Part shown: positions 5,190 through 22,707 of the stretch, one piece after another
How the letters are laid out: every line of letters begins with the position of its first letter
Position numbering within the stretch: the first letter of the stretch is position 1
Translations under genes and position numbers: made by a program
The notes under the pieces: generated by a model
What the model was told of the DNA's origin: nothing
Database searches by the model: none
Seen by the model: only the letters and a program-made list of their open reading frames with translations
NCBI RefSeq assembly: GCF_001528745.1
Contig: NZ_BCNS01000123.1
Location: 1-36,783, forward strand
DNA: 36,783 nt
Reading direction: 5' to 3'
Source of the DNA: Marinobacterium profundum
GTDB taxonomy: Bacteria > Pseudomonadota > Gammaproteobacteria > Pseudomonadales > Balneatricaceae

Positions 5190-5190
5190 C

Positions 5191-6826: not shown

Positions 6827-8038
6827 ATGAAATTCTCAGCATCTATTTTGGAAAGTCTCAAGGCGCGCAAACCAGAATACAGCTTATCCCAAAGGTTCTA
6901 TACAGACCCTGAGCTCTTCGACCTGGAAATGGAGCTTATTTTTGCTCAAAGCTGGTTGGCGATTGGGCACGTATGTGAAGTTCCAAAGGCTGGGGACTAC
7001 GTTACAGTCAATGTTGGTAAAGACTCACTGTTGATAGTGCGTAATCAGGAAGGAGGCATCGGTGCTTTCTTCAATACGTGCCGTCATCGCGGTTCGGTGC
7101 TTTGTACCAAGGCCAGTGGCAGCGCTCCAAAAATTGTATGCCCCTATCACCAGTGGACCTATGAGCTTGATGGTCAGCTGATATTTGCCCGTGAAATGGC
7201 CAGTGACTTTGACAAGGCTGATTTCCCCCTGAATAAAGTCAATGTTGAAGTCGCCGGCGGTACCATTTACGTTTGTCTCAGTGACAACCCACCGGACTTC
7301 AGTGAGTACGCGAGATCAATTGAGCCCTATATCGCGCCCCACGGCATGGACGACTTAAAAGTCGCTGCCGAGATATCCATTGTTGAGCAGGGTAACTGGA
7401 AGCTGGTCTGGGAAAATAACCGTGAGTGCTATCACTGCCAGGCTGGGCATCCCTCACTTTTACGCAGTTTGCCCGAGAGTGATGATCCGAATGACCCGGT
7501 TACAACACCTGAAGCCAAGGCCCACATGGAGCAGGCTTTTTCTGCGTGGGAGCAGAAAGACCTACCCTATCGGGCAGTGAACAAGAACGGTTGGCGCATT
7601 GCCCGAATGCCTCTTGTGAAAGGTGCAGTTTCCATGACCATGGATGGCCAACCCGCGGTGAAGAACCATCGATTGGGCACTCTGCCAGATATTGATGTAG
7701 GTACCTTGCGCAATCTGCATTTGCCAAATGTCTGGCTCCACTATCAGGCCGACCATTGTATTTCCTTCCGTGTGCTTCCGATAAGCCCTCAGGAAACGCA
7801 GCTGACCTGCAAGTGGATGGTGCCAAAAGACGCGGTAGAAGGCGTTGACTATGATGTAGATAATTTGACCAAAGTTTGGCGTGATACCAATGATGAAGAC
7901 AGAAGCTTTGTAGAGCGTAACCAATTGGGTATCAATTCACGCGCCTATAAGCCTGGGCCTTATTCACCAACTGCAGAGTTTGGGGTTAAAGCTTTCATTG
8001 ATTGGTACACTGACCGCATGATTGAAAAACTTAGCTAA
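6827..8038 (+). CDS. GbcA-like Rieske non-heme iron oxygenase, alpha subunit
   Basis: A 403-residue ring-hydroxylating-type oxygenase of the subfamily that includes glycine betaine monooxygenase GbcA and carnitine oxygenase CntA. The Rieske 2Fe-2S ligands are C85/H87 (NTCRHRGS) and C105/H108 (CPYHQW). The mononuclear iron site carries H203 and H208 in NNRECYHCQAGHP, with an acidic ligand expected in the later NDEDRSFVERNQ segment. Such enzymes N-demethylate or cleave quaternary ammonium substrates using O2 and reductant from a partner. The partner gene follows 98 bp downstream, after a hairpin. Base composition is visibly more AT-rich than folD/etfQO, suggesting acquisition. No dimethylglycine or sarcosine oxidase genes are in the window, so glycine betaine as substrate is possible but unproven. 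Confidence 0.88.
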   Translation: MKFSASILESLKARKPEYSLSQRFYTDPELFDLEMELIFAQSWLAIGHVCEVPKAGDYVTVNVGKDSLLIVRNQEGGIGAFFNTCRHRGSVLCTKASGSAPKIVCPYHQWTYELDGQLIFAREMASDFDKADFPLNKVNVEVAGGTIYVCLSDNPPDFSEYARSIEPYIAPHGMDDLKVAAEISIVEQGNWKLVWENNRECYHCQAGHPSLLRSLPESDDPNDPVTTPEAKAHMEQAFSAWEQKDLPYRAVNKNGWRIARMPLVKGAVSMTMDGQPAVKNHRLGTLPDIDVGTLRNLHLPNVWLHYQADHCISFRVLPISPQETQLTCKWMVPKDAVEGVDYDVDNLTKVWRDTNDEDRSFVERNQLGINSRAYKPGPYSPTAEFGVKAFIDWYTDRMIEKLS

Positions 8039-8136: not shown

Positions 8137-9225
8137 ATGCGTTCATCGGATCTGGCTAAACTGAAAGATGCTCCGTTTTATTGGAATGATGAGCAGCGTT
8201 TAGAGTGTGTCATGGTTATGCCGGAAACTCAAAACGCCAAGACCTTCTTCTTCAAAGTTGATGACGAGCAGCTGTTTAACTATGAGCCTGGGCAGTTCAT
8301 TACAATCGAAGTGCCGACGGAAAATGGTGTTCTGCACCGTTCGTACACGCTTTCGACAACACCTTCCAGGCCGCTTTCTATTGGTATTACTGTCAAGCGA
8401 CAAGAGGATGGGCAGGGAGGGAGTGCCTGGTTGCTGGATAACCTGAAGCTGGGTGACACTATAAAGGCATATGGACCCTCGGGTATTTTTTCATGTCGTA
8501 AACACCCTGCTAAAAAATACCTGTTTATATCGGCAGGTTCAGGGGTCACGCCAATGATTTCAATGCTGCGTTGGCTTTATGACTATAGCGTACATACAGA
8601 CATTGCTTTTATTCATTGTGCTGCGAGACCATCGGAAATACTTTTTCGTGATGAAGTTGAACATATGTCCAAGCGGGATCCTGATATTAAGGTGAGCTGG
8701 GTCGTAAAAGATACCGATCGCTATGATGTTTGGACTGGTTTTCAAGGGCGTTTTAACCAGATAATGCTGGAGCTGATAGCGCCTGACTTTGCTTCGCGCG
8801 AAATATTTTGTTGCGGGTCCGAAGGCTTCATGCAGAGTGTGCGTGATATTCTTCATGCTGAAGAATTTGACATGAATCATTATCATGAGGAAAGTTTCGG
8901 CGCGCCTATCTATACGCAAGAAGATACACCTGAGCACAATGACGTTATTCCGGCAGATGATGTTGAAGCGCAAATATATTTCAATAGTCTGAGCCGAGGG
9001 GTTGCCTGCAAGCAGACCGATACCCTGCTTTCAGTAGCAAAGGAGGTGGGTGTCGATATTCCCTCAGCCTGCATGTTTGGGGTATGCGGGAGCTGTAAAA
9101 TAAAGAAAGCCTCCGGTGAAGTGCATATGATTCACAATGGAGGTATCTCCGATTCGGAGATCGAGTCTGGATATGTATTGGCCTGTTGCTCGCGTGCCAT
9201 TGGTCGGGTGGTCCTGGAGGTTTAG
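8137..9225 (+). CDS. GbcB-like ferredoxin reductase partner of the Rieske oxygenase
   Basis: A 362-residue flavin/NAD(P)H/2Fe-2S reductase that feeds electrons to the adjacent oxygenase. The flavin-binding RSYTLSTTP motif is in the N-terminal barrel and the nucleotide-binding SAGSGVTPMISMLRWL follows. The C-terminal plant-type ferredoxin domain has ligands in PSACMFGVCGSCK and the last Cys in LACCS. The domain order FAD-NAD-ferredoxin is that of GbcB and phenylacetyl-CoA-type reductases. GAGGTT lies 8 nt before ATG 8137. Like the oxygenase, it is AT-richer than the genes at the left of the window. Pairing with the GbcA-like subunit by adjacency is strong. Confidence 0.88.
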   Translation: MRSSDLAKLKDAPFYWNDEQRLECVMVMPETQNAKTFFFKVDDEQLFNYEPGQFITIEVPTENGVLHRSYTLSTTPSRPLSIGITVKRQEDGQGGSAWLLDNLKLGDTIKAYGPSGIFSCRKHPAKKYLFISAGSGVTPMISMLRWLYDYSVHTDIAFIHCAARPSEILFRDEVEHMSKRDPDIKVSWVVKDTDRYDVWTGFQGRFNQIMLELIAPDFASREIFCCGSEGFMQSVRDILHAEEFDMNHYHEESFGAPIYTQEDTPEHNDVIPADDVEAQIYFNSLSRGVACKQTDTLLSVAKEVGVDIPSACMFGVCGSCKIKKASGEVHMIHNGGISDSEIESGYVLACCSRAIGRVVLEV

Positions 9226-9443
9226 GTTTTTGATTCGGCGCCCCCGGTAACTGCCATCTGTTGCTGAAATAGAGGGTCAGTTAGGTGCTGTAAAGCCTGA
9301 AAAACGATGGGGTTAAATAATATTTTTCGCCTTGGTATCAGGTTGCCGTAATCAACGGACAATCGACTGGCGGGTAAATGCGTTTGCGCCTTTGGAATCC
9401 TGCTTATCAGGCTCGAATAGTTAAATACAGAAGGGTGCCGACA

Positions 9444-11747
9444 TTGAAAAAACACGTAACGTCTAGCCATTGGGGTACGGGAATAGCAGAAGTTGAAGGG
9501 GGACGCTTGGTGGGTGTCGGTGCGCATCCTATCGATCCACACCCTTCATCTATCAATGATAATTTTGTCAATTCGATTTACGGCTCCTCCCGGATACTCC
9601 GTCCCGCTGTGCGTAAAGGTTATCTCGAAAATGGGCCTGGAAAACAGACTGATCGGCGAGGCAAGGAACCTTTTGTTGAAGTCTCTTGGGAAGCCGCGCT
9701 GGATTTGGCGGCGAATGCGCTGAAAAGCACCGGCGAGAAGTATGGTAACGAAGCAATCTTCGGTGGTTCCTATGGCTGGGGTAGCGCCGGACGGTTTCAT
9801 CATGCACAGAGTCAGCTGAAACGTTTTCTCAACTGTGCTGGCGGCTTTGTCAGAGGTGAAGGTAACTACAGCTACAATGCCGCACTCATTTTGTTACCTT
9901 ATATCATCGGTGATTTTGAAAAACTGGCAGTAGCCGGAACCCGCTGGTCGACCCTTGCCAAGGAGGGAGAACTGGTCGTCATGTTCGGTGGCATGCCGTT
10001 AAAAAACGCTCAGGCGGCTCCGGGCGGGTGTTCCAGGCACCGCCTGCGTGATGAGCTGCGTGCTTGCCGTGCCGCTGGAGTGAAATTCGTCGACTTCAAT
10101 CCCTGTAAATCTGACACGCCGGCTGAAATAGAAGCCGAATGGTTGCCTCCGGTACCAGGCTCCGATACGGCAATAATGCTTGGGCTTGCCCACACGCTTC
10201 TGGTTGAGGGGCTTCATAATCAGGATTTCCTCGATCGATACACCCTAGGCTTTGATGAAGTCAAAGCCTACCTTACTGGTGAAAAAGACGGCATACCTAA
10301 AACGGCTGACTGGGCTAGCAAACAATCCGACATTCCCGCAGATCGAATACGTACGCTCGCACGGGAGATGGCAGCGTCGCGAACCTTTATTTGTACTGCA
10401 GCGGGTGTCCAGCGGGGAGAGCACGGTGAACAACCCCTGTGGGGGACGATAACGCTTGCCTCCATGCTAGGTCAGATAGGCTTGCCGGGGAGCGGTTTCG
10501 GGATTGCATACGGCTCCGATGGTGGTATCGGCCTGATGAATCGCCCGATACGGTGGCCCGCTTTGCCTCAAGGCCAGAACAAAGTAGAGTCTTTTATCCC
10601 CGTCGCCTGTATCTCCGATATGCTACTGCATCCTGGTGAAGCCTATCAGTACAACGGGCTGGATTTGACTTACCCTGACATTCGGATGATTTGGTGGGCC
10701 GGGGGTAATCCCTTTCATCATCACCAGGATATAAACAGGCTAATTCAGGCCTTTCAAAAACCAGAGACGGTCATCGTCAATGAAATAAACTGGACGGCAA
10801 CGGCACGCTTTGCCGATATAGTATTTCCAGTGACGTCGACGCTTGAACGAGAGGATATTGGCGGGGGCAAGAGAGACAACTGCCTGGTTCCTATGCCAAA
10901 AATTATCGCGCCCGTAGGAGAAGCCCGGGACGAATACGATATTTTTACATCAATCGCCCAGCGCCTGGGTATTGAAGAGGATTTTACACAGAATAAAACT
11001 TCGCGGCAGTGGCTCGAGGAAATGTGGGCTGATGTCAGTCTTCAGGCGGCTGAAATGGATGTGGAGCTGCCGACATTCGATGATTTTCTGAATGGCGACA
11101 TTATCGAGTTTCCGGATCCAAATCCGGATACCATACTGTTCTCGGATTTTAGGCAGGATCCCGAGAGAAACAGCTTGGAAACGCCGAGCGGAAAAATAGA
11201 ACTCTACAGTGAAATCATAGCCTCATTTGGTTATACCGATTGTCCCGGGCAGGCGACCTGGCTGCCTCCGACGGAATGGCTTAAGTCGGATCGAGCAGCG
11301 TTCTATCCGCTCCATATGATTTCAGGACAGCCTAAAACCAGGCTGCATAGCCAACTTGATTCCGGTGCCTTCAGCCAAGGTAGCAAGGTACAGGGGCGGG
11401 AACCGATAATGATTCATCCAAATGATGCGATGAAGCGCAACATCGTCGACGGTGATGTTGTTACTGTTTTCAATGATCGAGGATCCTGTCTGGCTGGCGC
11501 CGTCGTCACTTCCGATATCCGCGAACAAACCGTCTACCTGTGTACGGGAGCCTGGTATGACCCCGTGAATCCAGAGATGAAAGACTCCCTGGATAAGCAC
11601 GGAAACCCTAATGTTCTGACCCATGACAAGAGAACATCAAGGCTTTCTCAGGGGACTGCTGCGCACAGTACGCTGGTAAATATAGAAAAATTTGAAGGTG
11701 AGCTGCCTTCGATTACCGCATACGTGGCGCCGGTAAGCACGGACTGA
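9444..11747 (+). CDS. BisC-like molybdopterin S-/N-oxide reductase (cytoplasmic)
   Basis: A 767-residue member of the DMSO reductase family, closest in layout to biotin sulfoxide reductase BisC and TorZ. The probable Mo ligand is Ser in FGGSYGWGSAGRFHHA (residue 114 from the start used here). Later blocks include GGDYS-like GEGNYSYNAA, the guanine-dinucleotide segments TAAGVQRGEHGEQ and WWAGGNPFHHHQD, and C-terminal HMISGQPKTRLHSQ. There is no 4Fe-4S Cys motif, Tat signal or other export signal, so the enzyme should be cytoplasmic. The frame is open from ATG 9378, but that ATG has a poor ribosome site. TTG 9444 has AGAAGGG 8 nt upstream and puts the N-terminus just before KKHVTSSHWG, as in BisC. 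Likely substrates are a sulfoxide or amine N-oxide. Electron donors are not encoded nearby. Confidence 0.85.
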   Translation: MKKHVTSSHWGTGIAEVEGGRLVGVGAHPIDPHPSSINDNFVNSIYGSSRILRPAVRKGYLENGPGKQTDRRGKEPFVEVSWEAALDLAANALKSTGEKYGNEAIFGGSYGWGSAGRFHHAQSQLKRFLNCAGGFVRGEGNYSYNAALILLPYIIGDFEKLAVAGTRWSTLAKEGELVVMFGGMPLKNAQAAPGGCSRHRLRDELRACRAAGVKFVDFNPCKSDTPAEIEAEWLPPVPGSDTAIMLGLAHTLLVEGLHNQDFLDRYTLGFDEVKAYLTGEKDGIPKTADWASKQSDIPADRIRTLAREMAASRTFICTAAGVQRGEHGEQPLWGTITLASMLGQIGLPGSGFGIAYGSDGGIGLMNRPIRWPALPQGQNKVESFIPVACISDMLLHPGEAYQYNGLDLTYPDIRMIWWAGGNPFHHHQDINRLIQAFQKPETVIVNEINWTATARFADIVFPVTSTLEREDIGGGKRDNCLVPMPKIIAPVGEARDEYDIFTSIAQRLGIEEDFTQNKTSRQWLEEMWADVSLQAAEMDVELPTFDDFLNGDIIEFPDPNPDTILFSDFRQDPERNSLETPSGKIELYSEIIASFGYTDCPGQATWLPPTEWLKSDRAAFYPLHMISGQPKTRLHSQLDSGAFSQGSKVQGREPIMIHPNDAMKRNIVDGDVVTVFNDRGSCLAGAVVTSDIREQTVYLCTGAWYDPVNPEMKDSLDKHGNPNVLTHDKRTSRLSQGTAAHSTLVNIEKFEGELPSITAYVAPVSTD

Positions 11748-12072: not shown

Positions 12073-12984
12073 TCAGGAATAGCCTGGGTTATAGAGCTCG
12101 ACAATATGTTGCCAGAACTTCTCCACCTCGGTCGTACGGGCATGGTTAAAACGGTACAGCTGTATTTTCAGATCCAGGGTGGCGAGCGGCTCATCCAGAA
12201 TACACAGCAAGCCTTTTTCCAGCTCATGGCGCACCAGACTGGCAGGTAGCCAGGCAGCGCCCTGGCCCTGCAGTACCAGGGCTTTGATGCCTTCGGCCAG
12301 TGCCGTCTCCAGTATGCGTCTGTAGGTGAAGCCCGTCGGGATTCTGGGGAGACACTCGCGCTTCACCAGTTCGCCGAGAAAAGAGTCATCGGGATAGGTA
12401 AGCAGTTTCATCGGGCGATCGGGATGCAGGCAGTGACGGGGCTGGCCTGATTCATCGACCGCAGACACCGGAATCAGTCTGTCGGTGCCCACCTGCAGCT
12501 GCTCTATATCGTCTCGATCGAGCTGACTAAAGGCGACGGGGGATGCAAAGCACAACAGGAAATCGCCCATGCCTGACAAAAAGGCTTCCAGTACGTCATG
12601 CAGGTTGTCGGCTTGCAGGCTGATGAGGCTGTCGCCCAGCAGTGACTCGACGTTGTTAATCCAGGGCGGGAAAAACGATACCGCCAGTGAGTGCTGGGCT
12701 AAAAACTGCATACTTCGGCAGGGTTCACTATGCGATTGGATGCGCTCGCGGGTGGCGTAAGTGTCGGCAATCATGCGGCGGGCTTCATCAACAAACTCAA
12801 CCCCTTCGGCCGTCAGCGTCGTGGGGTAACGGTTGCGATCAATCAGGCGCACCCCCAGCCAGTTTTCCAGTGAGCGAATGCGTCGGCTGAACGCCGGCTG
12901 AGTCACATGGCGAGAGTCCGCTGCCTTGGAAAAACTGCCATTCTCGGCCAGCGCTACTATATCCATGAGCCATTTCAGCTCCAT
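12073..12984 (-). CDS. LysR-type regulator divergent from the cysteate operon (cuyR-like)
   Basis: A 303-residue LysR-family transcription factor. The N-terminal winged HTH reads MELKWLMDIVALAENGSFSK, then AADSRHVTQPAFSRRIRSLE, typical of the family; the remainder is the effector-binding domain. It starts at ATG 12984 on the minus strand and faces cuyA across a 140-bp shared promoter region, the classic arrangement for a LysR activator of the adjacent operon. The inducer is inferred to be a sulfonate of the pathway. It converges with the BisC-like gene on its other side. Confidence 0.88.
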   Translation of the reverse strand: MELKWLMDIVALAENGSFSKAADSRHVTQPAFSRRIRSLENWLGVRLIDRNRYPTTLTAEGVEFVDEARRMIADTYATRERIQSHSEPCRSMQFLAQHSLAVSFFPPWINNVESLLGDSLISLQADNLHDVLEAFLSGMGDFLLCFASPVAFSQLDRDDIEQLQVGTDRLIPVSAVDESGQPRHCLHPDRPMKLLTYPDDSFLGELVKRECLPRIPTGFTYRRILETALAEGIKALVLQGQGAAWLPASLVRHELEKGLLCILDEPLATLDLKIQLYRFNHARTTEVEKFWQHIVELYNPGYS

Positions 12985-13124
12985 TAAAACGCCCCTAAGT
13001 GCTTGGTATGCTGGAGTTATGCCGAAAAGTAACCGGTATCGAATAATATAGCATTGGTCTGGGCTCGGGTCTTGTCCCTAGTATCGGTAGACATCAACAA
13101 CACACCGATCACAGGAGCTACAAC
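12985..13124. promoter_or_regulatory. Divergent promoter region lysR / cuyA
   Basis: This 140-bp interval must hold the promoters of both the LysR gene and the cuyA operon. An ATCGGT-N15-ACCGAT inverted repeat spans 13083-13109, close to the cuyA ribosome site (AGGAG, 13112-13116). No convincing -35/-10 pair was picked out by eye. Confidence 0.4.
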
Positions 13125-14135
13125 ATGCATCTGGCCCGCTTCCCCCGTCTGCACTTTGCCCATTTGCCCACCCCTCTTGAGCCGATGACCAATCTTTCCA
13201 AGGCCCTGGGTGGCCCCAACCTGTGGATCAAGCGTGACGACTGCACCGGTCTTGCCGGCGGCGGTAACAAGACCCGCAAGCTGGAGTTCCTGATGGCCGA
13301 TGCCGTTGAGAAGGGCGCTGATACCATCATTACCCAGGGTGCGACCCAGTCGAACCACGCTCGCCAGACCGTCGCGGCTGCTGCGAAGCTCGGCATGAAA
13401 TGCCACATCCTGCTGGAAGACCGCACCGGCTCCAGGGAAGTGGATTACAACTACAACGGCAACGTCATGCTGGATCAGCTGATGGACGCGCCCCTGACCA
13501 AGTTCCCCGCCGGCACCGACATGAACGCGGCTATGGAAGAACTGGCCGAGAAACTGCGCGCAGAAGGCAAGAAGCCTTACATCGTTCCCGGTGGCGGCTC
13601 CAATGAAATCGGTGCTCTGGGTTATGTAAACTGCGCACTGGAAATGCTGAATCAGGCCAATACCGCCGGACTGCGTATCGACTCAGTGGTACACGGCACC
13701 GGATCTGCCGGCACCCAGGCAGGCCTGGTTACCGGCTTTAGCGGTAGCAACAGCCAGATCCCGGTATTGGGTATTGGTGTACGCGTACCGCGTGAACAGC
13801 AGGAAACCAATGTCTTCCGTCTGGCTGAGCGCACCTGCGAAAAACTGGGTATCCCGGGCGCTGTCAAGCGTGAAGATGTTGTCGCCAACTGCGACTACGT
13901 GGGTGAAGGCTATGGCCTGCCGGCAGCCAGCACCCTGGAAGCCATTGAGCTGTTTGCACGTCACGAAGGCATTCTGCTGGATCCGGTTTACTCCGGCAAA
14001 GGCGCAGCCGGCTTGATCGACCTGGTTCGCAAGGGTCACTTTGGCAAAGACGACAATGTGGTCTTCTTGCATACCGGCGGCAGCCAGGCGCTGTTCGGTT
14101 ACCGCACTGCGTTCGACTTCCCCAAGTACGACTAA
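13125..14135 (+). CDS. cuyA: L-cysteate sulfo-lyase (PLP enzyme)
   Basis: A 336-residue fold-type II PLP enzyme of the ACC deaminase/D-cysteine desulfhydrase family. The Schiff-base lysine is K49 in [13 protein letters not shown]. Other family blocks are [47 protein letters not shown] and the C-terminal [13 protein letters not shown]. Sequence alone does not separate D-cysteine desulfhydrase from cysteate sulfo-lyase. The setting decides it: a YeiH-family exporter follows directly, then an HpsN-like sulfonate dehydrogenase, and a LysR gene is divergent. CuyA eliminates sulfite from L-cysteate, giving pyruvate and ammonium. ATG 13125 has AGGAG 8 nt upstream. It is the first gene of a five-gene plus-strand operon. 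Confidence 0.82.
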
Positions 14136-14159
14136 TCGCCCGGCACGAGAAATAAACGT

Positions 14160-15182
14160 ATGAAAGGACTGGCAGTGAATTCCATCGACCGACTGGGTGA
14201 GCTCAAGCAGCGCTACTTCCCGGGGCTCTGCGTCGCCGTGACTATCGGTATCGCAGCGACCTTCCTGGCGCAGCGCTATGGCGCACCGGCCATGCTGATG
14301 GGTCTGCTGCTGGGCCTTGCGTTTAACTTTCTCAGTGACGAGCCCAGAGTCGTCCCCGGTATTGAATTGGCCGCCAAGACACTGCTGCGCCTTGGCGTGG
14401 CGCTGCTGGGGCTTCGTATCACCTTCTCCGATGTACTGACGCTGGGCTGGCCACCACTGCTGATGGTCTGCTCTGCCGTACTGTTTACCATCGGTTTCGG
14501 TATCCTGATGGCACGCATGCTGGGTTTCAGCAGCCGCTTTGGTACCCTGACCGGCGGCTCAGTGGCCATCTGTGGAGCCTCGGCGGCGATGGCCATTAGC
14601 AGCGTACTGCCGCAAAATGCGCAGACTAAAAAAGACACCCTGTTTACGGTGATCAGCGTGACTACGCTGAGTACCCTGGCCATGGTGCTCTATCCCATGA
14701 TCAGTCATGAACTGGGGCTGACACCGGCCGAAGCCGGCCTCTTTCTAGGCGGTACCATCCATGATGTGGCCCAGGTGGTTGGCGCCGGCTACAGCGTGTC
14801 GGCCGAAGTGGGCGATCTGAGTACTTTTGTCAAACTGCTGCGCGTCGCCATGCTGGTACCCATAGTGCTGGTGATCGGGGTGGTGATTCGCCGCTCCATG
14901 GCCAGCCGTGGTGAAGTGGGTGCTGGCAGCGTCGGCGTACCGGGTTTTCTGATCGGCTTCGTGGTGTTGTTCATCTTTAATAGCCTGGGATGGATGCCGC
15001 AGGTAATCGTGCAGCCCATGGCCGACAGCGCCTCCTGGCTGCTACTCACCGCCATCGCTGCTCTGGGTGTACGTACATCGCTGAAGGAAATCCTCACCGT
15101 TGGCATCAAGCCTGTTTTGTTGATCGTCAGCGAAACCATTTTCATCGCGCTGCTGGTGCTGGGTTTTATTGTCTTCGGTTAA
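14160..15182 (+). CDS. YeiH/UPF0324-family putative sulfite/sulfate exporter (cuyZ-like)
   Basis: A 340-residue, very hydrophobic inner-membrane protein with about ten predicted membrane segments, of the conserved-hypothetical-698 (YeiH) family annotated as putative sulfate exporters. Family landmarks include LLGLRITFSDVL, GGSVAICGASAAMAISSVLP and GGTIHDVAQVVGAGYS. It starts 24 bp after cuyA. An exporter of the sulfite released by CuyA is the natural role. ATG 14160 has only a weak ribosome site; GTG 14175 has GAAAGGA before it, but the paralogue at 25920-26942 supports the ATG. The two paralogues differ at about 20 of 340 residues. Confidence 0.85.
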   Translation: MKGLAVNSIDRLGELKQRYFPGLCVAVTIGIAATFLAQRYGAPAMLMGLLLGLAFNFLSDEPRVVPGIELAAKTLLRLGVALLGLRITFSDVLTLGWPPLLMVCSAVLFTIGFGILMARMLGFSSRFGTLTGGSVAICGASAAMAISSVLPQNAQTKKDTLFTVISVTTLSTLAMVLYPMISHELGLTPAEAGLFLGGTIHDVAQVVGAGYSVSAEVGDLSTFVKLLRVAMLVPIVLVIGVVIRRSMASRGEVGAGSVGVPGFLIGFVVLFIFNSLGWMPQVIVQPMADSASWLLLTAIAALGVRTSLKEILTVGIKPVLLIVSETIFIALLVLGFIVFG

Positions 15183-15218
15183 ATATAAAGATATCTACGA
15201 TTAGATGAGGAAAGTGCA

Positions 15219-16532
15219 ATGGAATATCTGAAGCGTGCGGCCCTGGAGTCGGAAGTAGCACAGGAAAACGAGCGTATAGAAGGGGTCGTAAAGGACATGC
15301 TGGCCAATATTCGACGCAATGGCGAATCCGCCGTGCGCGAATATGCGCAGCAATTCGATAATTGGCAGGGTGACTTCATCCTGACCGAAGAAAAGAAAAT
15401 GGCGCTGATTGCGCAGGTTCCGCAGCGCGTCAAGGACGATATCGATTTCGCACATCGCCAGGTTAAGCGCTTTGCCGAGGCTCAGCGCAACAGCCTGACT
15501 TCGTTTGAAATTGAAACTGAAGAAGGCGTGCGTCTGGGTCAGCAAGTATTGCCGGTGCAGTGTGCCGGTTGCTATGTGCCCGGGGGCCGTTATGCACACG
15601 CGGCATCAGCCATCATGAGTGTTGCAACCGCCAAGGCAGCAGGCGTGCCTTTCATCGTTGCCTGCTCACCGCCACGTGGTGACAGCATCAACCCGGCTGT
15701 TGCCTATGCGATGCATGTGGCCGGCGCCGACGTGATTCTGGAAATGGGCGGTGTCCATGCGGTTGCAACCATGGCACTGGGTCTCTTTACCGGAAAACCA
15801 GCCGATATTCTGGTGGGGCCAGGCAATGCGTACGTCGCTGAAGCCAAACGCATGCTCTTTGGTGAGGTGGGGATCGATGTTTTCGCAGGCCCGACCGAGT
15901 CGGCCATCATCGCTGACAAGACTGCGGATCCGATGACCATTGCGGTCGACCTGGTATCCCAGGCCGAACATGGCACCAACTCCCCCGTTTGGCTGTTCAC
16001 CGACAGCCGCGAGATTGGTGAAAAAGTGCTAGAAATCATGCCCCACGTCATTGCTGATATGCCCAATGCCGATGTGTGCGAAGCCGCCTGGCGCGATCAT
16101 GGCGTTGTGATTCTCGGCGAGAATCGCGACGAAGTCGTTCAGATCAGTGATGAGTACGCCTGTGAGCATTTGCAGATATTGGCTGAAGATCTTGAATGGT
16201 GGAAAGCGGAACTCAAAAATTACGGATCCCTGTTCCTGGGTGAAGGCAGCACTGTGTCCCACGGTGACAAATGCTCGGGTACAAACCATATCCTGCCAAC
16301 CAGGAAGGCCGCACGCTACAGCGGTGGCTTGAACGTGCAGAAATTCATGAAGGTCCTGACCTACCAGGAGCTTGATGAAGCGGCAAACCTGGTCTTCAGT
16401 GGCGCCGGCTCACGCATTTCCCGCACTGAAGGGATGGAAGGCCACGCCCGTGCCTGCGACTGGCGCCTGCGCAAATACTACCCGGGTACCGAGTGGGATT
16501 TCGAAGTATACGATCAGAAACGTTACTGCTGA
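15219..16532 (+). CDS. HpsN-like sulfopropanediol 3-dehydrogenase (histidinol dehydrogenase fold)
   Basis: A 437-residue NAD-dependent alcohol dehydrogenase of the histidinol dehydrogenase family. The zinc and catalytic residues align with E. coli HisD: Q248/H251 (SQAEHG), E316/H317 (ACEHLQ), D350 (SHGDK), H357 (TNHILP) and H409 (EGHAR). No other his genes are nearby and the C-terminus extends past the HisD end with YYPGTEWDFEVYDQ. Family knowledge: HpsN oxidises (R)-2,3-dihydroxypropane-1-sulfonate to sulfolactate in two NAD steps. Within a cysteate operon an amino analogue, cysteinolate, is an attractive substrate (inference), since two-step alcohol oxidation would give cysteate. ATG 15219 follows GAGGAAAG. 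Confidence 0.8.
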   Translation: MEYLKRAALESEVAQENERIEGVVKDMLANIRRNGESAVREYAQQFDNWQGDFILTEEKKMALIAQVPQRVKDDIDFAHRQVKRFAEAQRNSLTSFEIETEEGVRLGQQVLPVQCAGCYVPGGRYAHAASAIMSVATAKAAGVPFIVACSPPRGDSINPAVAYAMHVAGADVILEMGGVHAVATMALGLFTGKPADILVGPGNAYVAEAKRMLFGEVGIDVFAGPTESAIIADKTADPMTIAVDLVSQAEHGTNSPVWLFTDSREIGEKVLEIMPHVIADMPNADVCEAAWRDHGVVILGENRDEVVQISDEYACEHLQILAEDLEWWKAELKNYGSLFLGEGSTVSHGDKCSGTNHILPTRKAARYSGGLNVQKFMKVLTYQELDEAANLVFSGAGSRISRTEGMEGHARACDWRLRKYYPGTEWDFEVYDQKRYC

Positions 16533-16577
16533 TCCAAACGCGTGCAGGAAACTGGCCCCGGTATTAGGAAGAGTGAA

Positions 16578-17771
16578 ATGACTAAATTTACCAAATCGTT
16601 TACTCAGCAGGAGCCGATTCCCGAAGCGGGAATCGAGCGGGCGGTTGAGGTGATGCACAGCGGTCGCCTGCACCGCTACAATGCCCTGGGCGACGAGTTG
16701 ACAGAGACCGCACTGCTGGAACAGGAGTTTGCGGCCTACAATGACAGCCGATTCTGCCTGGCCTGTGCCTCTGGTGGTTATGCTCTGCATATTGCCATGC
16801 GCTCGATTGGAGTTAACTCCGGCGACAAGGTCCTGTGCAACGCCTTCACTTTGGCCCCGGTTCCAGGCGCCATCCATAATGCCGGGGCTATCCCCGTACT
16901 GGTTGAAACCACCGACGACTTCACCATTGATCTGGTTGATCTGGAAGCCAAGGCCGCGGCTGACGACGTGCATTACCTGATGTTGTCGCACATGCGTGGA
17001 CACCTGGTGGACATGGACAGCTTGATGGAAATTTGTGACCGCCACGGTGTTAGTGTTATCGAAGACTGCGCTCACACCATGGGTGCCACCTGGAAGGGGC
17101 GCAGAAGCGGCACCTTCGGCAAGGTTGGCTGTTTCAGCACCCAGACCTACAAGCACATTAACTCCGGTGAGGGTGGTCTGCTGATTACCGACGATGAGGA
17201 AGTGATGGCACGCGCCATCATGCACTCCGGCTCCTATATGCTCTACGACCGTCATACCGTGGGTCCTGCCCCTGAGGTGTTTGCGAAAATTCGTTTCGAA
17301 ACCCCCAACTACAGTGGCCGAATGGATAATCTGCGTGCCGCGATCCTGCGTCCGCAACTGAGTGATCTGGATCGCCAGTGCGATCGCTGGAATGAACTCT
17401 ATTGTGCATTGGAGAATGGTCTGCGTGCGATTGAGGGCGTGCGTGTGCCGCTGCGCCCCGAGGCGGAATATTTCGTCGGCAGCTCTTTGCAGTTTTCGTT
17501 GCCTGAACTGAACGCCGAGGCTTTCGCTCGATTCATTCGTCGCTGTGAAGAGCAGGGTGTGCAGATTAAATGGTTCGGTGATGCCGATCCCAAAGGCTAT
17601 ACCAGCCGCTTTGACAGCTGGCACTACCTGGGTGATGCACCGGCACTGCCGGCGACTGAAAAAGTGCTTGCGACCATGTGTGATATTCGTTTGCCGTTAA
17701 CTTTCAATGTTGAAGACTGCCAGGTTATAGCCGCAGTAATTGCAGAAGTTCTGCATGAAATACAGAGCTAA
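16578..17771 (+). CDS. DegT/DnrJ/EryC1-family PLP aminotransferase
   Basis: A 397-residue fold-type I aminotransferase. The PLP lysine is K192 in FSTQTYKHINSGEGG, preceded by the cofactor-holding VIEDCAHTMGA (residues 160-170) and the substrate-side SGGYALHIAMRS. The frame is open from 16542, but ATG 16578 has GGAAGAG upstream and begins MTKFTKSFTQ. Family members usually transaminate keto-sugars, which are neutral ketones rather than alpha-keto acids. In this operon, between an HpsN-like dehydrogenase and a racemase-like gene, a C3 sulfonate such as 3-hydroxy-2-oxopropanesulfonate/cysteinolate is a plausible substrate pair (inference). No sugar-nucleotide genes are present, which argues against a polysaccharide role. 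Confidence 0.82.
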   Translation: MTKFTKSFTQQEPIPEAGIERAVEVMHSGRLHRYNALGDELTETALLEQEFAAYNDSRFCLACASGGYALHIAMRSIGVNSGDKVLCNAFTLAPVPGAIHNAGAIPVLVETTDDFTIDLVDLEAKAAADDVHYLMLSHMRGHLVDMDSLMEICDRHGVSVIEDCAHTMGATWKGRRSGTFGKVGCFSTQTYKHINSGEGGLLITDDEEVMARAIMHSGSYMLYDRHTVGPAPEVFAKIRFETPNYSGRMDNLRAAILRPQLSDLDRQCDRWNELYCALENGLRAIEGVRVPLRPEAEYFVGSSLQFSLPELNAEAFARFIRRCEEQGVQIKWFGDADPKGYTSRFDSWHYLGDAPALPATEKVLATMCDIRLPLTFNVEDCQVIAAVIAEVLHEIQS

Positions 17772-17831
17772 CAGAGCTCGTCTGGCTTTGAGTAAACGGG
17801 AAAAACCAAAGAAGTCATTTAAGGTGCTGCA

Positions 17832-18536
17832 GTGAGTGAAAAAGTAGTCGGTATTATTGGTGGCATGGGGCCTGAGGCGACCGTCGACCTGATGCAGCGA
17901 GTTATTGAAGCGACCTCGGTGGAAGATGACGCCGATCATATTCACATGCTGGTGGACAACAACCCGAAGGTTCCGTCCCGTATTAAGGCGCTGATCGAAG
18001 GCACGGGCATCAGTCCCGGGCCCTGTATGGCGGGGATGGCCCAGGGGCTGGAACAGCAAGGCGCCGACTTTCTGGTCATCCCCTGCAACACGGCGCATCA
18101 CTACTACGAGGAAGTGGCCGCCTCGGTATCGGTGCCCGTGATTAACCTGATTCAGCTGGCGGCAGATACGATCAGGGCCCGGCAGCCTGAGCTTAAAAAA
18201 GTGGGCTTGCTGGCATCCAGTGCGCTGCGGATGATCAAGCTCTATGAGCCCTGGTGTGATGCTCTGGGAATTGAGATTGTTTATCCCGAGACAAGCTGCC
18301 AGGACTCCGTGATGCAGCTGATTCGCGACGTCAAGGCCGGGCGCAGCACCGATGCACAGATAGTGGAATATAACGCCGCGGCGCAGAACCTGCAGGCACA
18401 GGGGGCGCAATGCCTGCTGATTGCGTGCACTGAGCTGTCAGTCCTGGATGACAAGCTTGCATCCGACTTGCCCGTATATGACGCCTCGGACCTGCTGGCC
18501 CGGGAAATTGTCCGGCGGGTAAAGTCTGAGGCCTGA
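17832..18536 (+). CDS. Aspartate/glutamate-racemase-family protein (candidate cysteate racemase)
   Basis: A 234-residue PLP-independent racemase. The two catalytic cysteines are C85 in VIPCNTAHHYY and C199 in LIACTELSVL. The N-terminus GIIGGMGPEATVDLM and the substrate loop VDNNPKVPSR (residues 41-50) are as in aspartate racemase. GTG 17832 is the likely start. It is the last gene of the cuyA operon. Cysteate is the sulfonate analogue of aspartate, so interconversion of D- and L-cysteate ahead of the L-specific CuyA is the best hypothesis. Racemisation of aspartate itself, or an unrelated hydantoin/maleate-type reaction, cannot be excluded from sequence. Confidence 0.85.
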   Translation: MSEKVVGIIGGMGPEATVDLMQRVIEATSVEDDADHIHMLVDNNPKVPSRIKALIEGTGISPGPCMAGMAQGLEQQGADFLVIPCNTAHHYYEEVAASVSVPVINLIQLAADTIRARQPELKKVGLLASSALRMIKLYEPWCDALGIEIVYPETSCQDSVMQLIRDVKAGRSTDAQIVEYNAAAQNLQAQGAQCLLIACTELSVLDDKLASDLPVYDASDLLAREIVRRVKSEA

Positions 18537-18769: not shown

Positions 18770-18787
18770 ATTAATCTGCGGATTAAT
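18770..18787 (-). terminator. Small AT-rich hairpin at the end of the NHL gene
   Basis: ATTAATC (18770-18776) pairs with GATTAAT (18781-18787) around TGCG, touching the stop codon of the NHL gene on the minus strand. It could end the cassette transcript, although the stem is weak. Confidence 0.35.
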
Positions 18788-19620
18788 TAATCTAGCGGCT
18801 CAAGTTTGGTCAGGCCGTCGGGGATCATATCGGCGATATAGATACTGCCGTTGTCGGCCTGTGCTAGGCCATGCCCATAGGTGCTGAAGGTACGGCATCG
18901 GCCGAGCAGTTCTCCGTCAGCGCTGAAAACCGAGAGGCGTGGAGTTTGATCCGTTACGTAAATCAGCCCCCCATAAACATCGAGTGCCATCGGTTTATGG
19001 ACGCCGGTAATTGAGCTCAGGAAGTCCCCGTCAGAGCTGAAAATTTGCACCCGGTTGTTTTCACGATCTGCGACAGCCACCCGGTTGCCTGCAAGAACGG
19101 CGACAGAGTGCGGCGTGGAAAACTTGCCTTCAGCGGATCCCGCGCCACCAAAAGAGTGGCTATATGTGAGCTCTGCCGTGAAGACGTGAATCTGAGAGTT
19201 TCCATAGCCATCGGATACATAGAGACAGCCCTTGCTGTCGCGCGCGCAGTCGGTCGGGTGATTGAACGGCTGACCCAGGCGAGGGCGGTTGTTGCAATGC
19301 AGGCGGTGAAGCACGCGAAAGCTGGCATCCAGCAGAAGTACCTGGTGCCCGTCTATATCAGTCACCGCCATCATATCTGCGCCCAGAGCGCGGATACCAT
19401 GCCCGAGGATGACTCCCTCGAGCATGATTGTTTTCACAAGCTCTCCATCCAGTGACAGGATGAGCAGCTGCGGTTTTTGTCTGCGCAGGGCTACCACTTG
19501 GCCGTTGAACACCGCCACGTCAGATATGCCTCCAAAGCTATATCCTTCAGGCAACCTGACGGGAGTCCGTTCCACGCGGTAAAAGCGATCGCCGAGACCT
19601 ACAATCTGTTCGTTCGCCAT
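18787..19620 (-). CDS. NHL-repeat beta-propeller protein
   Basis: A 277-residue six-bladed-propeller-type protein. NHL-like blades are clear in FNHPTDCARDSKGCLYVSD, FSTPHSVAVLAGNRVAVADR with ENNRVQIFSSDG, and HGLAQADNGSIYIADM. The blade phrasing resembles peptidyl-alpha-hydroxyglycine amidating-lyase-type domains and SMP-30/gluconolaconase-like proteins. There is no signal peptide, so it should stay in the cytoplasm. It is the last gene of the minus-strand cassette, 9 bp after the amidase. A lyase or lactonase acting on the compound imported by the TRAP system is possible; a binding role is equally possible. Enzyme activity is not shown by sequence. Confidence 0.75.
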   Translation of the reverse strand: MANEQIVGLGDRFYRVERTPVRLPEGYSFGGISDVAVFNGQVVALRRQKPQLLILSLDGELVKTIMLEGVILGHGIRALGADMMAVTDIDGHQVLLLDASFRVLHRLHCNNRPRLGQPFNHPTDCARDSKGCLYVSDGYGNSQIHVFTAELTYSHSFGGAGSAEGKFSTPHSVAVLAGNRVAVADRENNRVQIFSSDGDFLSSITGVHKPMALDVYGGLIYVTDQTPRLSVFSADGELLGRCRTFSTYGHGLAQADNGSIYIADMIPDGLTKLEPLD

Positions 19621-19629
19621 GGGGTGCCC

Positions 19630-20799
19630 TTACAGTGTGGGTTCAATTTCTGCTGCGGCATCCAGCAGGGCCTGATCCCGATAAGCAGGTGCAGTCAGCA
19701 TCAGGCCTGAACCCGCTGTGGTCTTGATTGGCAGCGAGAGCGAGCAGCCGTCCATGACATTGGCCAGAGTGGTGTTACGCAAAGCCAGCAGGTTTAAACG
19801 GTCGAACTCGGCGGGATCATCAAAAACGCCCAGCTGCGGTGGCAGAATCGCTACCGTGGGTAGCAGTATGCCTTGATCGCCCAATTCGGCGCGTGCCTCG
19901 GCGACGATGACTTTGCGCAGTGCCAGCGTCTGGGCGTAGGCGACGGCGCTGACCTCGTCGGCTCGATCCATACGAGCTTTGACGCGTGCGTCTATCAGTT
20001 CTGGCATCTGTTCATATTGGGCAGCGTGGTGCACGCGACTTTCCACCGCCGAGAAATGCCAAACGGGCAGTTTCTTGTAATTTTCAAGGAAGGCCAGCTT
20101 GCGCCGTTCTATGGTGAAGCCCAGAGCCTTCAGCTTTAAAACTGAGGCTTCAAACGCGGCAGCAACAGCATCGTCCAGATCGTTCATCCCAAAATTTTCG
20201 GGCACGATAAGGTGACGCAAAGGTGCGAGATTTTGCGCCGTGTCTATAGCCAGCACTTCGTAGGCCTTGCGCACTGTCGCCACATCTCGGGCCATTGGCC
20301 CAACGCAATCAAGTGTGTGGGATAGCGCTACGGCCCCGCGGGATGAGATTGTGGCCGCCGTGGGTTTCATGCCCACAACGCCACAAAATGCCGCCGGAAT
20401 ACGTAGCGAGCCACCGGTATCGGTGCCAAGCGCTATATCGATCTGCGCCGATGCCAAAGCCGCTGCGCCACCTGCTGTGGAGCCGCCTGCGATCGCCCCT
20501 GCAACAATCGGGGAAAGAGGCGTGCCGAAATGGGGGTTCAGGCCGAGACCGGAATAGGCGAACTCGGTCATATTGTTATGGCCTACCAAAAGACCTCCGG
20601 CTGCGCGTAGCCTGGCAACTGCATCGGCGTCCTGAGCAGCGGCTGGCAGATTCGCCCGGGCCCGTGAGCCCGCTTTGGTCACGTATCCGGCTACATCAAA
20701 GAGATCTTTGATGCCAAGCCGCAAGCCCGATAAAGGCCCTTTGGGCATATCTGCGGGGGCGAAAATCTGGGTGAAATTAATATTCTCTGAGGTGCTCAT
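19630..20799 (-). CDS. Amidase-signature family hydrolase
   Basis: A 389-residue amidase with an intact Ser-cisSer-Lys triad: K31 in LGIKDLFDV, cis-Ser S107 in GGSTAGGAA and nucleophile S131 in GTDTGGSLRIPAAFCG. The S107-S131 spacing of 24 equals that of FAAH. The protein is short for the family (GatA about 480), and no gatB or gatC is present, so it is not the tRNA amidotransferase. It lies between the TRAP large subunit and the NHL protein in one minus-strand operon. It probably releases ammonia or an amine from an imported amide. The exact substrate is unknown. Confidence 0.85.
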   Translation of the reverse strand: MSTSENINFTQIFAPADMPKGPLSGLRLGIKDLFDVAGYVTKAGSRARANLPAAAQDADAVARLRAAGGLLVGHNNMTEFAYSGLGLNPHFGTPLSPIVAGAIAGGSTAGGAAALASAQIDIALGTDTGGSLRIPAAFCGVVGMKPTAATISSRGAVALSHTLDCVGPMARDVATVRKAYEVLAIDTAQNLAPLRHLIVPENFGMNDLDDAVAAAFEASVLKLKALGFTIERRKLAFLENYKKLPVWHFSAVESRVHHAAQYEQMPELIDARVKARMDRADEVSAVAYAQTLALRKVIVAEARAELGDQGILLPTVAILPPQLGVFDDPAEFDRLNLLALRNTTLANVMDGCSLSLPIKTTAGSGLMLTAPAYRDQALLDAAAEIEPTL

Positions 20800-20810
20800 A
20801 GGTCAGGCCT

Positions 20811-22109
20811 TCAGTAGCTTAGTTCGACCAAGCCGGTTGCAATGACGGGGAAGAGGGTGAGCAAGACCACTGCCAGCACGAGCAGGCAGAAAAAGGGCGT
20901 TACCATGCGGGTGATTTCAAAGATGCTACGGCCTGTGAGGCCTTGAATCACGAACAGGTTGAAGCCCAGTGGCGGGGTAATTTGCGCCATTTCCACCACT
21001 ATGATCAGGTAGATGCCGAACCAGATAGGGTCGATGCCCGCAGCGATGACCGAAGGCAGAACCACGGAAGTGGTTAGAACCACAATGGAAATTCCATCCA
21101 GGAAACAGCCGAGCAGGATGAAAAACAGGGTCAGCACCGCGATCAGACCATAGGTGCTTAGCCCGCTGCCCGAGATGATCTGCGCCAGGGCGGCTGGCAG
21201 GCCGGAGAAACTCATGGCCGAGGTTAGAAATGCGGCACCCAGCAGGATGAAGCCGATCATGGCGGATGTGCGTGTGGCACCCATCAAGGCCTCGGTAAAG
21301 GCGCTCATGGTCAGTGATCGGCTCAGTGCCGCGATAACCAACGCACCCAGCACACCCAGGGCCGCAGCTTCGGTTGCAGTGGCGATACCCGCGTATATCG
21401 AACCGATGACGCAGAGGATCAGCCCCACAACAGGGATCAGCAGCCGCAGGCCACGGATGCGTTCGCCAATTGGCACGCGGGCTTCAGGGGGTGGCATTGC
21501 CTGCCGGTTCATCAGGGACCAGAAGATGATGTAACTCGAGAACATTGCCATCAGCATCAGTCCGGGCACCACACCTGCGATAAACAGGCGGTTGATCGAT
21601 ACCTGTGCTGCAACCCCGTAAACGATCATTACAACCGATGGCGGGATTAGCAGACCCAAAGTACCCGAGCCCGCGAGCGAGCCAATCGACAGCCGGTCGT
21701 CGTAGCCACGGTTCGATAATTCTGGCAGGGATATCTTGCCTATGGTCGCTGTTGTTGCCGCCGAGGAGCCGGACACAGCTGCAAAGATTCCGCAGCCTGC
21801 AACATTAACGTGAGCCAGACCACCGGGCAGTCGACCCAGCCAGGGGGCGAGACCTGAGAACAGGTTTTCGGCCAAGCGGGTGCGGTAGAGAATTTCGCCC
21901 ATCCATATGAAGAGGGGCAAGGCGGTGAGGGTCCAGTTGGCGGAGGCCGCCCACATGGTGGTCGCATAAATGGCGTCGACAGGGGTGGAGGTGAATAACA
22001 GAAAAACCACTAGCCCTGCGATCAGCAGTGCGACGCCGACCCAGACGCCAAGGCCCAGGAGCAGGAAAAGCACGCCCAAAAGGGTCGCGGCTTGAATTAA
22101 GCTGTCCAA
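20811..22109 (-). CDS. TRAP transporter large permease (DctM type)
   Basis: A 432-residue inner-membrane protein with about 12 hydrophobic segments and the DctM landmarks GCGIFAAVSGSSAATTATIGKI near residue 105 and LGLLIPPSVVMIVYG near 155, as well as MAQITPPLGFNLFVIQGL towards the end. It carries the sodium-driven transport channel. Its ATG lies 1 bp after the small-subunit stop, indicating coupled translation. Substrates of TRAP systems are organic acids, including sulfonates and N-acyl compounds; the adjacent amidase suggests an amide acid here. Confidence 0.92.
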   Translation of the reverse strand: MDSLIQAATLLGVLFLLLGLGVWVGVALLIAGLVVFLLFTSTPVDAIYATTMWAASANWTLTALPLFIWMGEILYRTRLAENLFSGLAPWLGRLPGGLAHVNVAGCGIFAAVSGSSAATTATIGKISLPELSNRGYDDRLSIGSLAGSGTLGLLIPPSVVMIVYGVAAQVSINRLFIAGVVPGLMLMAMFSSYIIFWSLMNRQAMPPPEARVPIGERIRGLRLLIPVVGLILCVIGSIYAGIATATEAAALGVLGALVIAALSRSLTMSAFTEALMGATRTSAMIGFILLGAAFLTSAMSFSGLPAALAQIISGSGLSTYGLIAVLTLFFILLGCFLDGISIVVLTTSVVLPSVIAAGIDPIWFGIYLIIVVEMAQITPPLGFNLFVIQGLTGRSIFEITRMVTPFFCLLVLAVVLLTLFPVIATGLVELSY

Positions 22110-22110
22110 G

Positions 22111-22707
22111 TCAGATCTCCGTCGTGGGTGAGGTGGGGGCGGTGATTTCGACCGGCAGGTTCAGCATCAGGCGAATAGCGCGTTCGGCCATAGCTGCGGC
22201 AAACAGAATGCTGCCTACGACCATCGCCAGCTGCGGTATCCACAGGGGCACTGCGACCAGTCCGATGCTGACGTCGTTGTAGCTGTAGCTTTCCTGGACG
22301 AACTGAAACAGCGCGAAGCTGCCCCAGACGAGCATCGAGCATGCGATCAGGCTGGCGAGGATATCGACCCAGCGCCCGTATGGCTCAGGGATCAAGCCCC
22401 GCACTGAGGTGACGCGGATGTGGTCGCCGTGGATCAGTGCCGAAGGCAAGGCGAGGAAGATCGAAGCACTCAAGGCCCAGGCCGCAAAATCGTCGGCTGA
22501 GGGAATTTGCTGGCCCACCAGACGCAGTGCAATCTGCGCTACGATCAGCAGTGCGATTAAGCACAGTGTGGCGGCGGCCAGGGCCCCGCAGCCTTTGTAA
22601 ATAGAGCGCGAGAGCGCCAACGGGTGTCTTGTGCATCCCTCTTTTGAGAAGAGGTGCCAGCGCTGGGCTGGCTCCTCTCTCGGCGTGGATTGAGTCGCCT
22701 TACTCAT
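22111..22707 (-). CDS. TRAP transporter small permease (DctQ type)
   Basis: A 198-residue protein with four membrane segments, beginning after a soluble N-terminal stretch of about 35 residues; conserved Q and D residues occur in RLVGQQIPSADDFAAWALSA. Its start codon overlaps the DctP stop codon (ATGAGTAA, 8-bp overlap), and its stop is adjacent to the DctM start, so the three TRAP genes are translationally linked. The N-terminal extension is longer than in many DctQ proteins. Confidence 0.9.
   Translation of the reverse strand: MSKATQSTPREEPAQRWHLFSKEGCTRHPLALSRSIYKGCGALAAATLCLIALLIVAQIALRLVGQQIPSADDFAAWALSASIFLALPSALIHGDHIRVTSVRGLIPEPYGRWVDILASLIACSMLVWGSFALFQFVQESYSYNDVSIGLVAVPLWIPQLAMVVGSILFAAAMAERAIRLMLNLPVEITAPTSPTTEI

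Follow-up and report, generated by a model that had tools for sequence, protein, structure and literature searches.

Organization of the Operon

The DNA analyzed here, hereafter the window, is the 36,783-nt stretch at positions 1–36,783 of contig NZ_BCNS01000123.1 of Marinobacterium profundum (GCF_001528745.1), and the system in question is an operon lying between positions 12073 and 18536 that probably encodes a catabolic route for cysteinolate (2-amino-3-hydroxypropanesulfonate), as judged from its genes and those of related loci. A LysR-type regulator gene on the minus strand (12073–12984; PF00126, PF03466) faces five plus-strand genes: cuyA, encoding D-cysteate sulfo-lyase (13125–14135; NF052482, 567.6 bits, above the cut-off of 450); yeiH, encoding a putative sulfite/sulfate exporter (14160–15182; PF03601; TIGR00698, 147 bits, short of the cut-off of 232.6); an hpsN-like gene for an NAD-dependent zinc dehydrogenase of the HisD family (15219–16532; PF00815), predicted to be an L-cysteinolate dehydrogenase; a gene for a DegT-family pyridoxal phosphate (PLP) aminotransferase (open reading frame 16542–17771, start at ATG 16578; PF01041), predicted to act between cysteinolate and 2-oxo-3-hydroxypropanesulfonate; and cuyB, encoding cysteate racemase (17832–18536; NF052483, 285.4 bits, above the cut-off of 190).

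An initial annotation of this segment had described the same genes in this arrangement with short gaps, and the reading frames bear this out: 140 bases separate the LysR gene from cuyA, and the gaps thereafter are 24, 36, 45, and 60 bases. The DegT start at ATG 16578 agrees with homologues and places the catalytic lysine at K192, as annotated, and the catalytic cysteines of CuyB, C85 and C199, are both there. A divergent LysR relative lies upstream in 11 of 88 scanned loci, with two more LysR matches that do not face the operon. Within the genus, an HpsN relative (E ≤ 1e-100) is found in two of seven genomes, so the operon is accessory.

Recurrence of the Gene Set and Exclusion of hpsO and hpsP

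Genome contigs were scanned for DegT, and the best 80 of 583 relatives were retained; the scan is selected on DegT and therefore biased with respect to hpsN-degT linkage. Together with plasmid and genome-sample loci, this gave 39 loci (window included) containing both degT and hpsN, with neighboring genes identified by tblastn at author-set thresholds. These loci contained cuyA (24), cuyB (25), a PLP decarboxylase gene (5), and RidA (4), as well as relatives of a TRAP binding protein (13), TauA (5), and YeiH (9); neither hpsO nor hpsP was found at any of the 39 at these thresholds. Two further degT+hpsN plasmid stretches cut into an annotated cuyA. All 10 plasmids matching DegT at E ≤ 1e-90 carry cuyA, degT, an amino acid racemase gene, and hpsN in one cluster, and the three of these racemases that were scored on the CuyB model (from Paracoccus seriniphilus, Polaromonas, and Mesorhizobium) all pass its cut-off; for Polaromonas, translation recovered hpsN and cuyA, both of which lack annotation and are interrupted by frame breaks. 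The gene set is distributed over Pseudomonadota, relatives of sulfate reducers, SAR324, and one planctomycete, and because it recurs across unrelated genomes, chance is no sensible explanation for it. The order cuyA-yeiH-hpsN-degT-racemase, proposed in the initial annotation as worth searching for in other genomes, is thus conserved as a set, but its internal order varies.

Selection on HpsN was used as a separate test, comprising 25 HpsN places, the window's own left out: six from a class sample of 369 genomes (E ≤ 1e-150) and 19 from a phylum sample of 398 genomes (E ≤ 1e-139). Nineteen of the 25 had hpsO and/or hpsP and were without a degT of the operon's subfamily; three (L169, L174, L176) had degT and cuyA without hpsO or hpsP; and three (L163, L175, L180) had neither degT nor hpsO or hpsP. 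The canonical HpsN loci include those of Sulfitobacter S190 (with ComDE), Paracoccus versutus, and Cupriavidus.

Several side observations concern the composition of these loci. In a related complete chromosome (G004), TRAP transporter genes lie between degT and cuyB (L102:4520–7856), where the window has 60 bases (17771–17832), so the transporter was either gained there or lost here. Three alphaproteobacterial plasmids have an alpha/beta hydrolase gene between hpsN and yeiH (L112:6347–7147, L113:6303–7079, L155:14004–14840), and its product may release cysteinolate from an ester or amide. A threonine synthase paralogue (L066:3–1364; NF006050, 620 bits) stands next to LysR-DMGDH-hpsN-degT (DMGDH, dimethylglycine dehydrogenase), and that stretch has no cuyA.

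Predicted Pathway

From the gene content, the family assignments of CuyA and CuyB, the conserved residues, and the patterns of recurrence and exclusion, all of which are observed, we infer each substrate and reaction direction of the following route. The HpsN-like enzyme would oxidize the terminal alcohol of cysteinolate twice with NAD+ to give L-cysteate, CuyB would convert L-cysteate to D-cysteate, and CuyA would cleave D-cysteate to pyruvate, ammonia, and sulfite, with the sulfite exported by YeiH and perhaps also by a TauE/SafE protein. The DegT enzyme would most likely exchange the amino group between cysteinolate and 2-oxo-3-hydroxypropanesulfonate, in one direction or the other. In the genus and some other bacteria, ProXVW or another importer and demethylating enzymes encoded in a neighboring module may strip N-methyl groups first.

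The best solved-structure match of the HpsN-like protein is sulfopropanediol 3-dehydrogenase (520 bits). By Cahn–Ingold–Prelog derivation, the R enantiomer of the substrate of that enzyme, dihydroxypropanesulfonate (DHPS), and L-cysteinolate share a spatial arrangement, which makes oxidation of L-cysteinolate to L-cysteate the default prediction. As described for the Cupriavidus enzyme, HpsN is R-specific and does not oxidize L-histidinol, the sulfonate is held by His126 and Lys353, Glu318, His319, and Asp352 are catalytically important, and L-cysteate is bound in the crystal like R-sulfolactate (PMC11382572). The R-specificity and the crystal both favor the L-cysteinolate reaction; the oxidation of cysteinolate to cysteate suggested in the initial annotation is therefore retained for the L form, and D-cysteinolate is not an obvious direct substrate. 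In Cupriavidus numbering, the window protein keeps Glu318, His319, Asp352, His126, and Lys353, in line with the intact HisD-type zinc residues annotated earlier. His126 and Lys353 are kept in all 37 degT-linked HpsN rows (window included) and in all 22 hpsO/P-linked rows, and the other HisD-family gene of the same genome (contig C207; 32% identity) is HisD-like, with Tyr at positions 126 and 353. Eleven of the more distant HpsN places of the phylum sample were also taken into the comparison; another HpsN/HisD-family clade (L182–L192, ∼45–50% identity) has Met or Leu for His126 in 11 of 11 rows, with Lys353 kept.

Phylogenetic trees of HpsN and DegT were built by a quick method without bootstrap. 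The HpsN tree has 74 rows and leaves out loci L007 and L016, in which hpsN is split. In this tree, 27 degT-linked rows including the window formed one clade (Shimodaira–Hasegawa-like approximate likelihood ratio test 99), whereas the other 10 fell among the hpsO/P-linked part; since three label changes are needed, the HpsN-DegT partnership probably arose more than once. A sequence signature separating degT-linked from hpsO/P-linked HpsN was sought and came down to just three columns (165 Met, 166 Asp, 205 Tyr), none of them decisive: they are common to the two main degT-linked groups as against the other rows, but two of the three are missing from the third, small group. In Cupriavidus HpsN, column 205 is occupied by Phe205, which stacks on the adenine.

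Downstream of HpsN, the initial annotation had CuyA acting on L-cysteate and the racemase inverting D-cysteate. CuyA instead prefers D-cysteate, according to its NCBIfam name and to PMC11382572, so CuyB most likely works in the reverse direction, turning L- into D-cysteate. The earlier proposal that the added enzymes feed CuyA is probably right for C3 aminosulfonates, on comparative genomic grounds, but the D-cysteate direction is most likely the reverse of that proposed, and DHPS is an unlikely input. Further evidence on the intermediate comes from five Oceanospirillaceae loci (L011, L013, L015, L018, L022) in which a PLP decarboxylase relative was found and no cuyA or cuyB; the decarboxylase of L011, the one compared, has cysteine sulfinic acid decarboxylases as its best solved-structure matches (313–314 bits). 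The occurrence next to hpsN-degT of a second enzyme type that could consume cysteate speaks for cysteate over sulfolactate as the compound formed by HpsN. RidA sits between degT and cuyA in L036, L040, and L041, and its presence at four loci suits a CuyA that releases aminoacrylate. On the Ruegeria pomeroyi DSS-3 megaplasmid, a racemase (L149:14546–15244) beside a DMGDH-like gene scores above the CuyB cut-off of 190 (276 bits) and is a candidate for the R. pomeroyi CuyB, which is stated to be not known (PMC11382572).

DegT is the least certain step of the predicted pathway, its function as a cysteinolate aminotransferase being predicted from linkage and fold. The model of the protein has a mean predicted local distance difference test score of 91.5, and its PDB matches are DegT-type sugar and cyclitol aminotransferases at 19–26% identity (among the 50 matches listed), with a concordant profile search. 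Such enzymes work on ketones next to a hydroxylated carbon, so 2-oxo-3-hydroxypropanesulfonate would fit better than an alpha-keto acid. DegT is a candidate for the transamination between cysteinolate and this ketone. Diatoms and coccolithophores that produce DHPS are reported to contain both 2-oxo-3-hydroxypropanesulfonate and cysteinolic acid (PMC11131964). The operon copy is the sole DegT of its genome at E ≤ 1e-20 to the query. Across the phylum sample, DegT occurs in 28 genomes, HpsN (E ≤ 1e-140) in 19, and both in 14. At 56 loci, the stretch contains DegT and lacks hpsN; of 16 genomes chosen from among these, 13 have an HpsN of at least 53% identity elsewhere, one has no more than a 44% relative, and in the other two none was found at the threshold.

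A standalone Rhodobacterales DegT clade of 42 rows, whose neighbors in the examples examined are a phosphoglycolate-phosphatase-like (gph-like) gene, glmU/glmS, or moaA, raises the possibility that DegT is anabolic and forms cysteinolate, which might go into roseobacter sulfonolipids or serve in osmoprotection, with its place in the operon being secondary. R. pomeroyi is reported to contain cysteinolic acid, whose synthesis is described as not known (PMC8319176), and a biosynthetic role of the standalone Rhodobacterales DegT is possible; the roseobacter DegT neighborhoods revealed no direct function. As an account of the operon enzyme, however, an anabolic role is very unlikely, given that every one of the 10 plasmid DegT genes sits with cuyA, a racemase gene, and hpsN.

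The initial annotation also listed DHPS among the compounds to assay, and a DHPS route can be drawn in which HpsN converts R-DHPS to R-sulfolactate, an unlinked dehydrogenase yields sulfopyruvate, and DegT forms L-cysteate for CuyB and CuyA. The named active-site residues are the same in degT-linked and hpsO/P-linked HpsN, and a DHPS-sulfolactate-sulfopyruvate-cysteate route, with an aminotransferase gene given as not known, is described in R. pomeroyi (PMC11382572). Against this, the 39 loci are free of hpsO and hpsP, as noted above, and the same genome has HpsO and HpsP relatives of just 39% and 32% at best, with none in the window stretch. Moreover, no slcD or comDE was found at the 39 loci at the thresholds used (sulfolactate dehydrogenases elsewhere in the genome were not searched), and the solved DegT relatives are mostly ketosugar and cyclitol aminotransferases. 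The absence of hpsO and hpsP from the loci and the distance of the relatives in the genome weaken DHPS as the direct input, and this route is unlikely.

Several observations nevertheless weigh against cysteinolate as the substrate. L-cysteate is described as a weak inhibitor of Cupriavidus HpsN, with a half-maximal inhibitory concentration of 2.4 mM, and "cysteinol" appears nowhere in the main text of that paper, so that cysteinolate is not among the compounds assayed there (PMC11382572). The shared active-site residues mean that the sequence is no proof of cysteinolate over DHPS. Eight of the 39 loci (L010, L014, L026, L037, L046, L051, L066, L071) have neither cuyA nor the decarboxylase gene in the stretch examined, and the PLP decarboxylases fall under every NCBIfam cut-off (four of five scored). 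Linkage is also incomplete from the DegT side: 14 of the 28 DegT genomes of the phylum sample, all from one family, lack HpsN at E ≤ 1e-140, and four loci have cuyA-degT with no hpsN nearby, two of these on contigs of <7.2 kb. HpsN relatives of 57–58% occur elsewhere in two of the latter four genomes, a 44% relative occurs in one, and none in one.

An N-Demethylation Module Beside the Operon

The initial annotation placed the operon at 12073–18536, and the six genes are indeed there; however, the conserved unit is larger, and a flanking N-demethylation module had been overlooked. On the plus strand, the window begins with the 3′ end of purU (formyltetrahydrofolate deformylase; 2–259), recognized by eye from its resemblance to the PurU C-terminus and cut by the contig start, followed by folD (275–1180; PF02882/PF00763; 78% to the MPC6 plasmid folD), the electron transfer flavoprotein (ETF)-ubiquinone oxidoreductase gene (ETF-QO; 1219–2901; PF05187, PF21162; 75% to the MPC6 plasmid copy), and genes for a proX-like betaine-type substrate-binding protein (3045–3998; PF04069 OpuAC), a proV-like ATP-binding cassette (ABC) ATPase (4038–5189; PF00005; 80% to MPC6 plasmid proV), and a proW-like permease (5077–6708; PF00528; 69% to MPC6 plasmid proW; start uncertain, with homology from 5191). 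Next, also on the plus strand, are genes for a GbcA-like Rieske oxygenase (6827–8038; NF058607, 561 bits, below the cut-off of 670), a GbcB-like reductase (8137–9225; NF058606, 360 bits, below the cut-off of 500), and a molybdopterin S/N-oxide reductase of the BisC/TorA family (9378–11747; TIGR00509, 942 bits, below the cut-off of 1018). Neither the GbcA-like nor the GbcB-like protein thus reaches the curated glycine betaine monooxygenase cut-offs. The BisC/TorA-type gene adjoins gbcB in both the window and G004, and a molybdopterin oxidoreductase-like set of reading frames was seen by eye 3′ of degT in L029.

Parts of this module stand beside the same operon elsewhere, including on Pseudomonas and Paracoccus plasmids. 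In G004, the 5′ part reads DMGDH-like, etfB, etfA, purU, folD, ETF-QO, proXVW, gbcA, gbcB, bisC, with purU directly 5′ of folD, followed by a mostly minus-strand block and then LysR, cuyA, yeiH, hpsN, degT, TRAP, cuyB. In the M. profundum genome, contig C96 opens with DMGDH-etfB-etfA, directed outward, and the window starts inside purU, so the G004 order likely holds there too, with a gap in the assembly between the two parts. The MPC6 plasmid carries LysR-cuyA-yeiH-hpsN-degT-TRAP-cuyB-DMGDH-proX-etfB-etfA-purU-folD-ETFQO-proV-proW contiguously, with no GbcAB in the stretches examined. The P. seriniphilus plasmid has DMGDH-etfB-etfA-folD-purU, another ABC transporter, and cuyA-degT-cuyB-hpsN, with GbcAB-like genes alongside and no ETF-QO or ProXVW in its stretch. 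In total, the DMGDH clade accompanies nine of the 39 loci, namely seven in the stretch (L005, L008, L037, L058, L066, L150, and L151, the last ∼15 kb away) plus M. profundum (C96) and G004; it is immediately 5′ of hpsN-degT in L037 and L066. MttB is close to a DMGDH-like gene in L008, L037, L058, L060, and L151.

The presence of parts of the module beside the operon on plasmids suggests that N-methylated aminosulfonates may be substrates, and we tentatively propose, at clearly less than even confidence, that the entire cluster serves to degrade cysteinolate carrying N-methyl groups, with the trimethyl betaine as the most methylated form. Such a compound would be imported by ProXVW; a Rieske (GbcAB-like) or MttB enzyme would take off the quaternary methyl; the DMGDH-like dehydrogenase with ETF, ETF-QO, FolD, and PurU would remove the remaining N-methyls; and the freed cysteinolate would pass to HpsN, CuyB, and CuyA. 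If true, this would mean an undescribed natural marine sulfonate betaine, consumed via a pathway that is plasmid-borne in some bacteria; among the open-access papers listed for methylated taurines or cysteinolates, none was relevant by title.

Alternatively, the upstream genes could be an independent island, for example for glycine betaine, that travels beside the operon, which would be compatible with a cysteinolate core and has a chance only somewhat short of even. The DMGDH clade occurs in 11 other phylum-sample genomes (58–61%, one family) near no operon gene, with MttB adjoining it in five, and the DMGDH-like gene was accordingly rejected as a stand-alone marker. Among the 10 close plasmid members of this clade (≥56.7%), four are linked to the whole operon set and six are not as far as examined; of the three examined, the R. 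pomeroyi gene is beside a CuyB and two have no operon genes in view. A special plasmid GbcA subfamily was likewise sought and not found, the best match being 52% with no clear clade (among the 20 of 149 matches listed). Pointing the other way, the M. profundum genome has a separate GbcA on contig C85 that passes the curated cut-off (NF058607, 727 bits, against 561–562 for the window protein, 498 for one on C83, and ≤141 for the next five), with a reductase-like reading frame adjoining it, as judged by eye. In addition, the module is next to the operon in G004, where a single minus-strand block separates them; the two are contiguous on the MPC6 plasmid, and on the P. seriniphilus plasmid they lie side by side with each other and with GbcAB-like genes. 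DMGDH directly precedes hpsN-degT in two loci, and in R. pomeroyi it adjoins a CuyB gene. It is this mixed linkage of the DMGDH clade, together with the separate GbcA on C85, that sets the tentative standing of N-methylated substrates. On the SC52 plasmid, a serC-annotated gene (L153:16217–17407) follows DMGDH-etfBA-folD-purU, hinting at another N-methyl substrate for the DMGDH clade.

On the other side of the operon, adjoining it on the minus strand, 18787–23668 encodes an NHL-repeat protein, an amidase, and a TRAP transporter cluster. Farther along the minus strand are a second yeiH copy (25920–26942; PF03601), 94% identical to the first, and a gene of the TauE/SafE sulfite exporter family (29130–29855; PF01925; no NCBIfam match), a possible accessory part; both yeiH copies are likewise present in G004.

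Comparison With Known Systems

According to PMC8703288, cysteinolate is a compatible solute widely distributed among marine microalgae, and PMC11631085 describes it as forming the head group of a lipid in roseobacters. No paper describing genes that degrade it was found in the accessible parts of the open-access literature. The 272 HpsN sequences of PMC11382572 were, by its description, chosen for hpsO and hpsP nearby, and the DegT set is therefore outside that sample. The gene set is real, widespread, and well delimited, and as a sequence-based prediction the pathway is a good one. Because DegT versus HpsO/P separates it from the DHPS set, it would allow the use of cysteinolate and that of DHPS to be scored separately in metagenomes.

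Like the HpsN pathway for DHPS (HpsN-HpsO-HpsP with SuyAB, or ComDE/Xsc), the operon has an HpsN-family zinc dehydrogenase with His126 and Lys353 for a C3 sulfonate; unlike it, the operon is without hpsO and hpsP and carries DegT, CuyA, and CuyB instead. It shares with CuyB-CuyA cysteate dissimilation two enzymes that pass curated cut-offs, but is extended upstream by the HpsN-like and DegT enzymes. The neighboring module has family members and cofactor genes in common with glycine betaine demethylation (GbcAB, DMGDH), but with GbcA/B-like scores under the cut-offs and a position beside a desulfonation operon. In histidine synthesis, HisC and HisD pair a transaminase with a HisD-fold four-electron dehydrogenase acting on the amino-alcohol end, and by analogy DegT may work before HpsN much as HisC works before HisD; the operon differs in having a sulfonate rather than an imidazole, a DegT rather than a HisC fold, and His126 and Lys353 where the genome's own HisD has Tyr residues. 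CuyA, CuyB, and HpsN are thus known kinds of enzymes, and it is their combination with DegT that is new.

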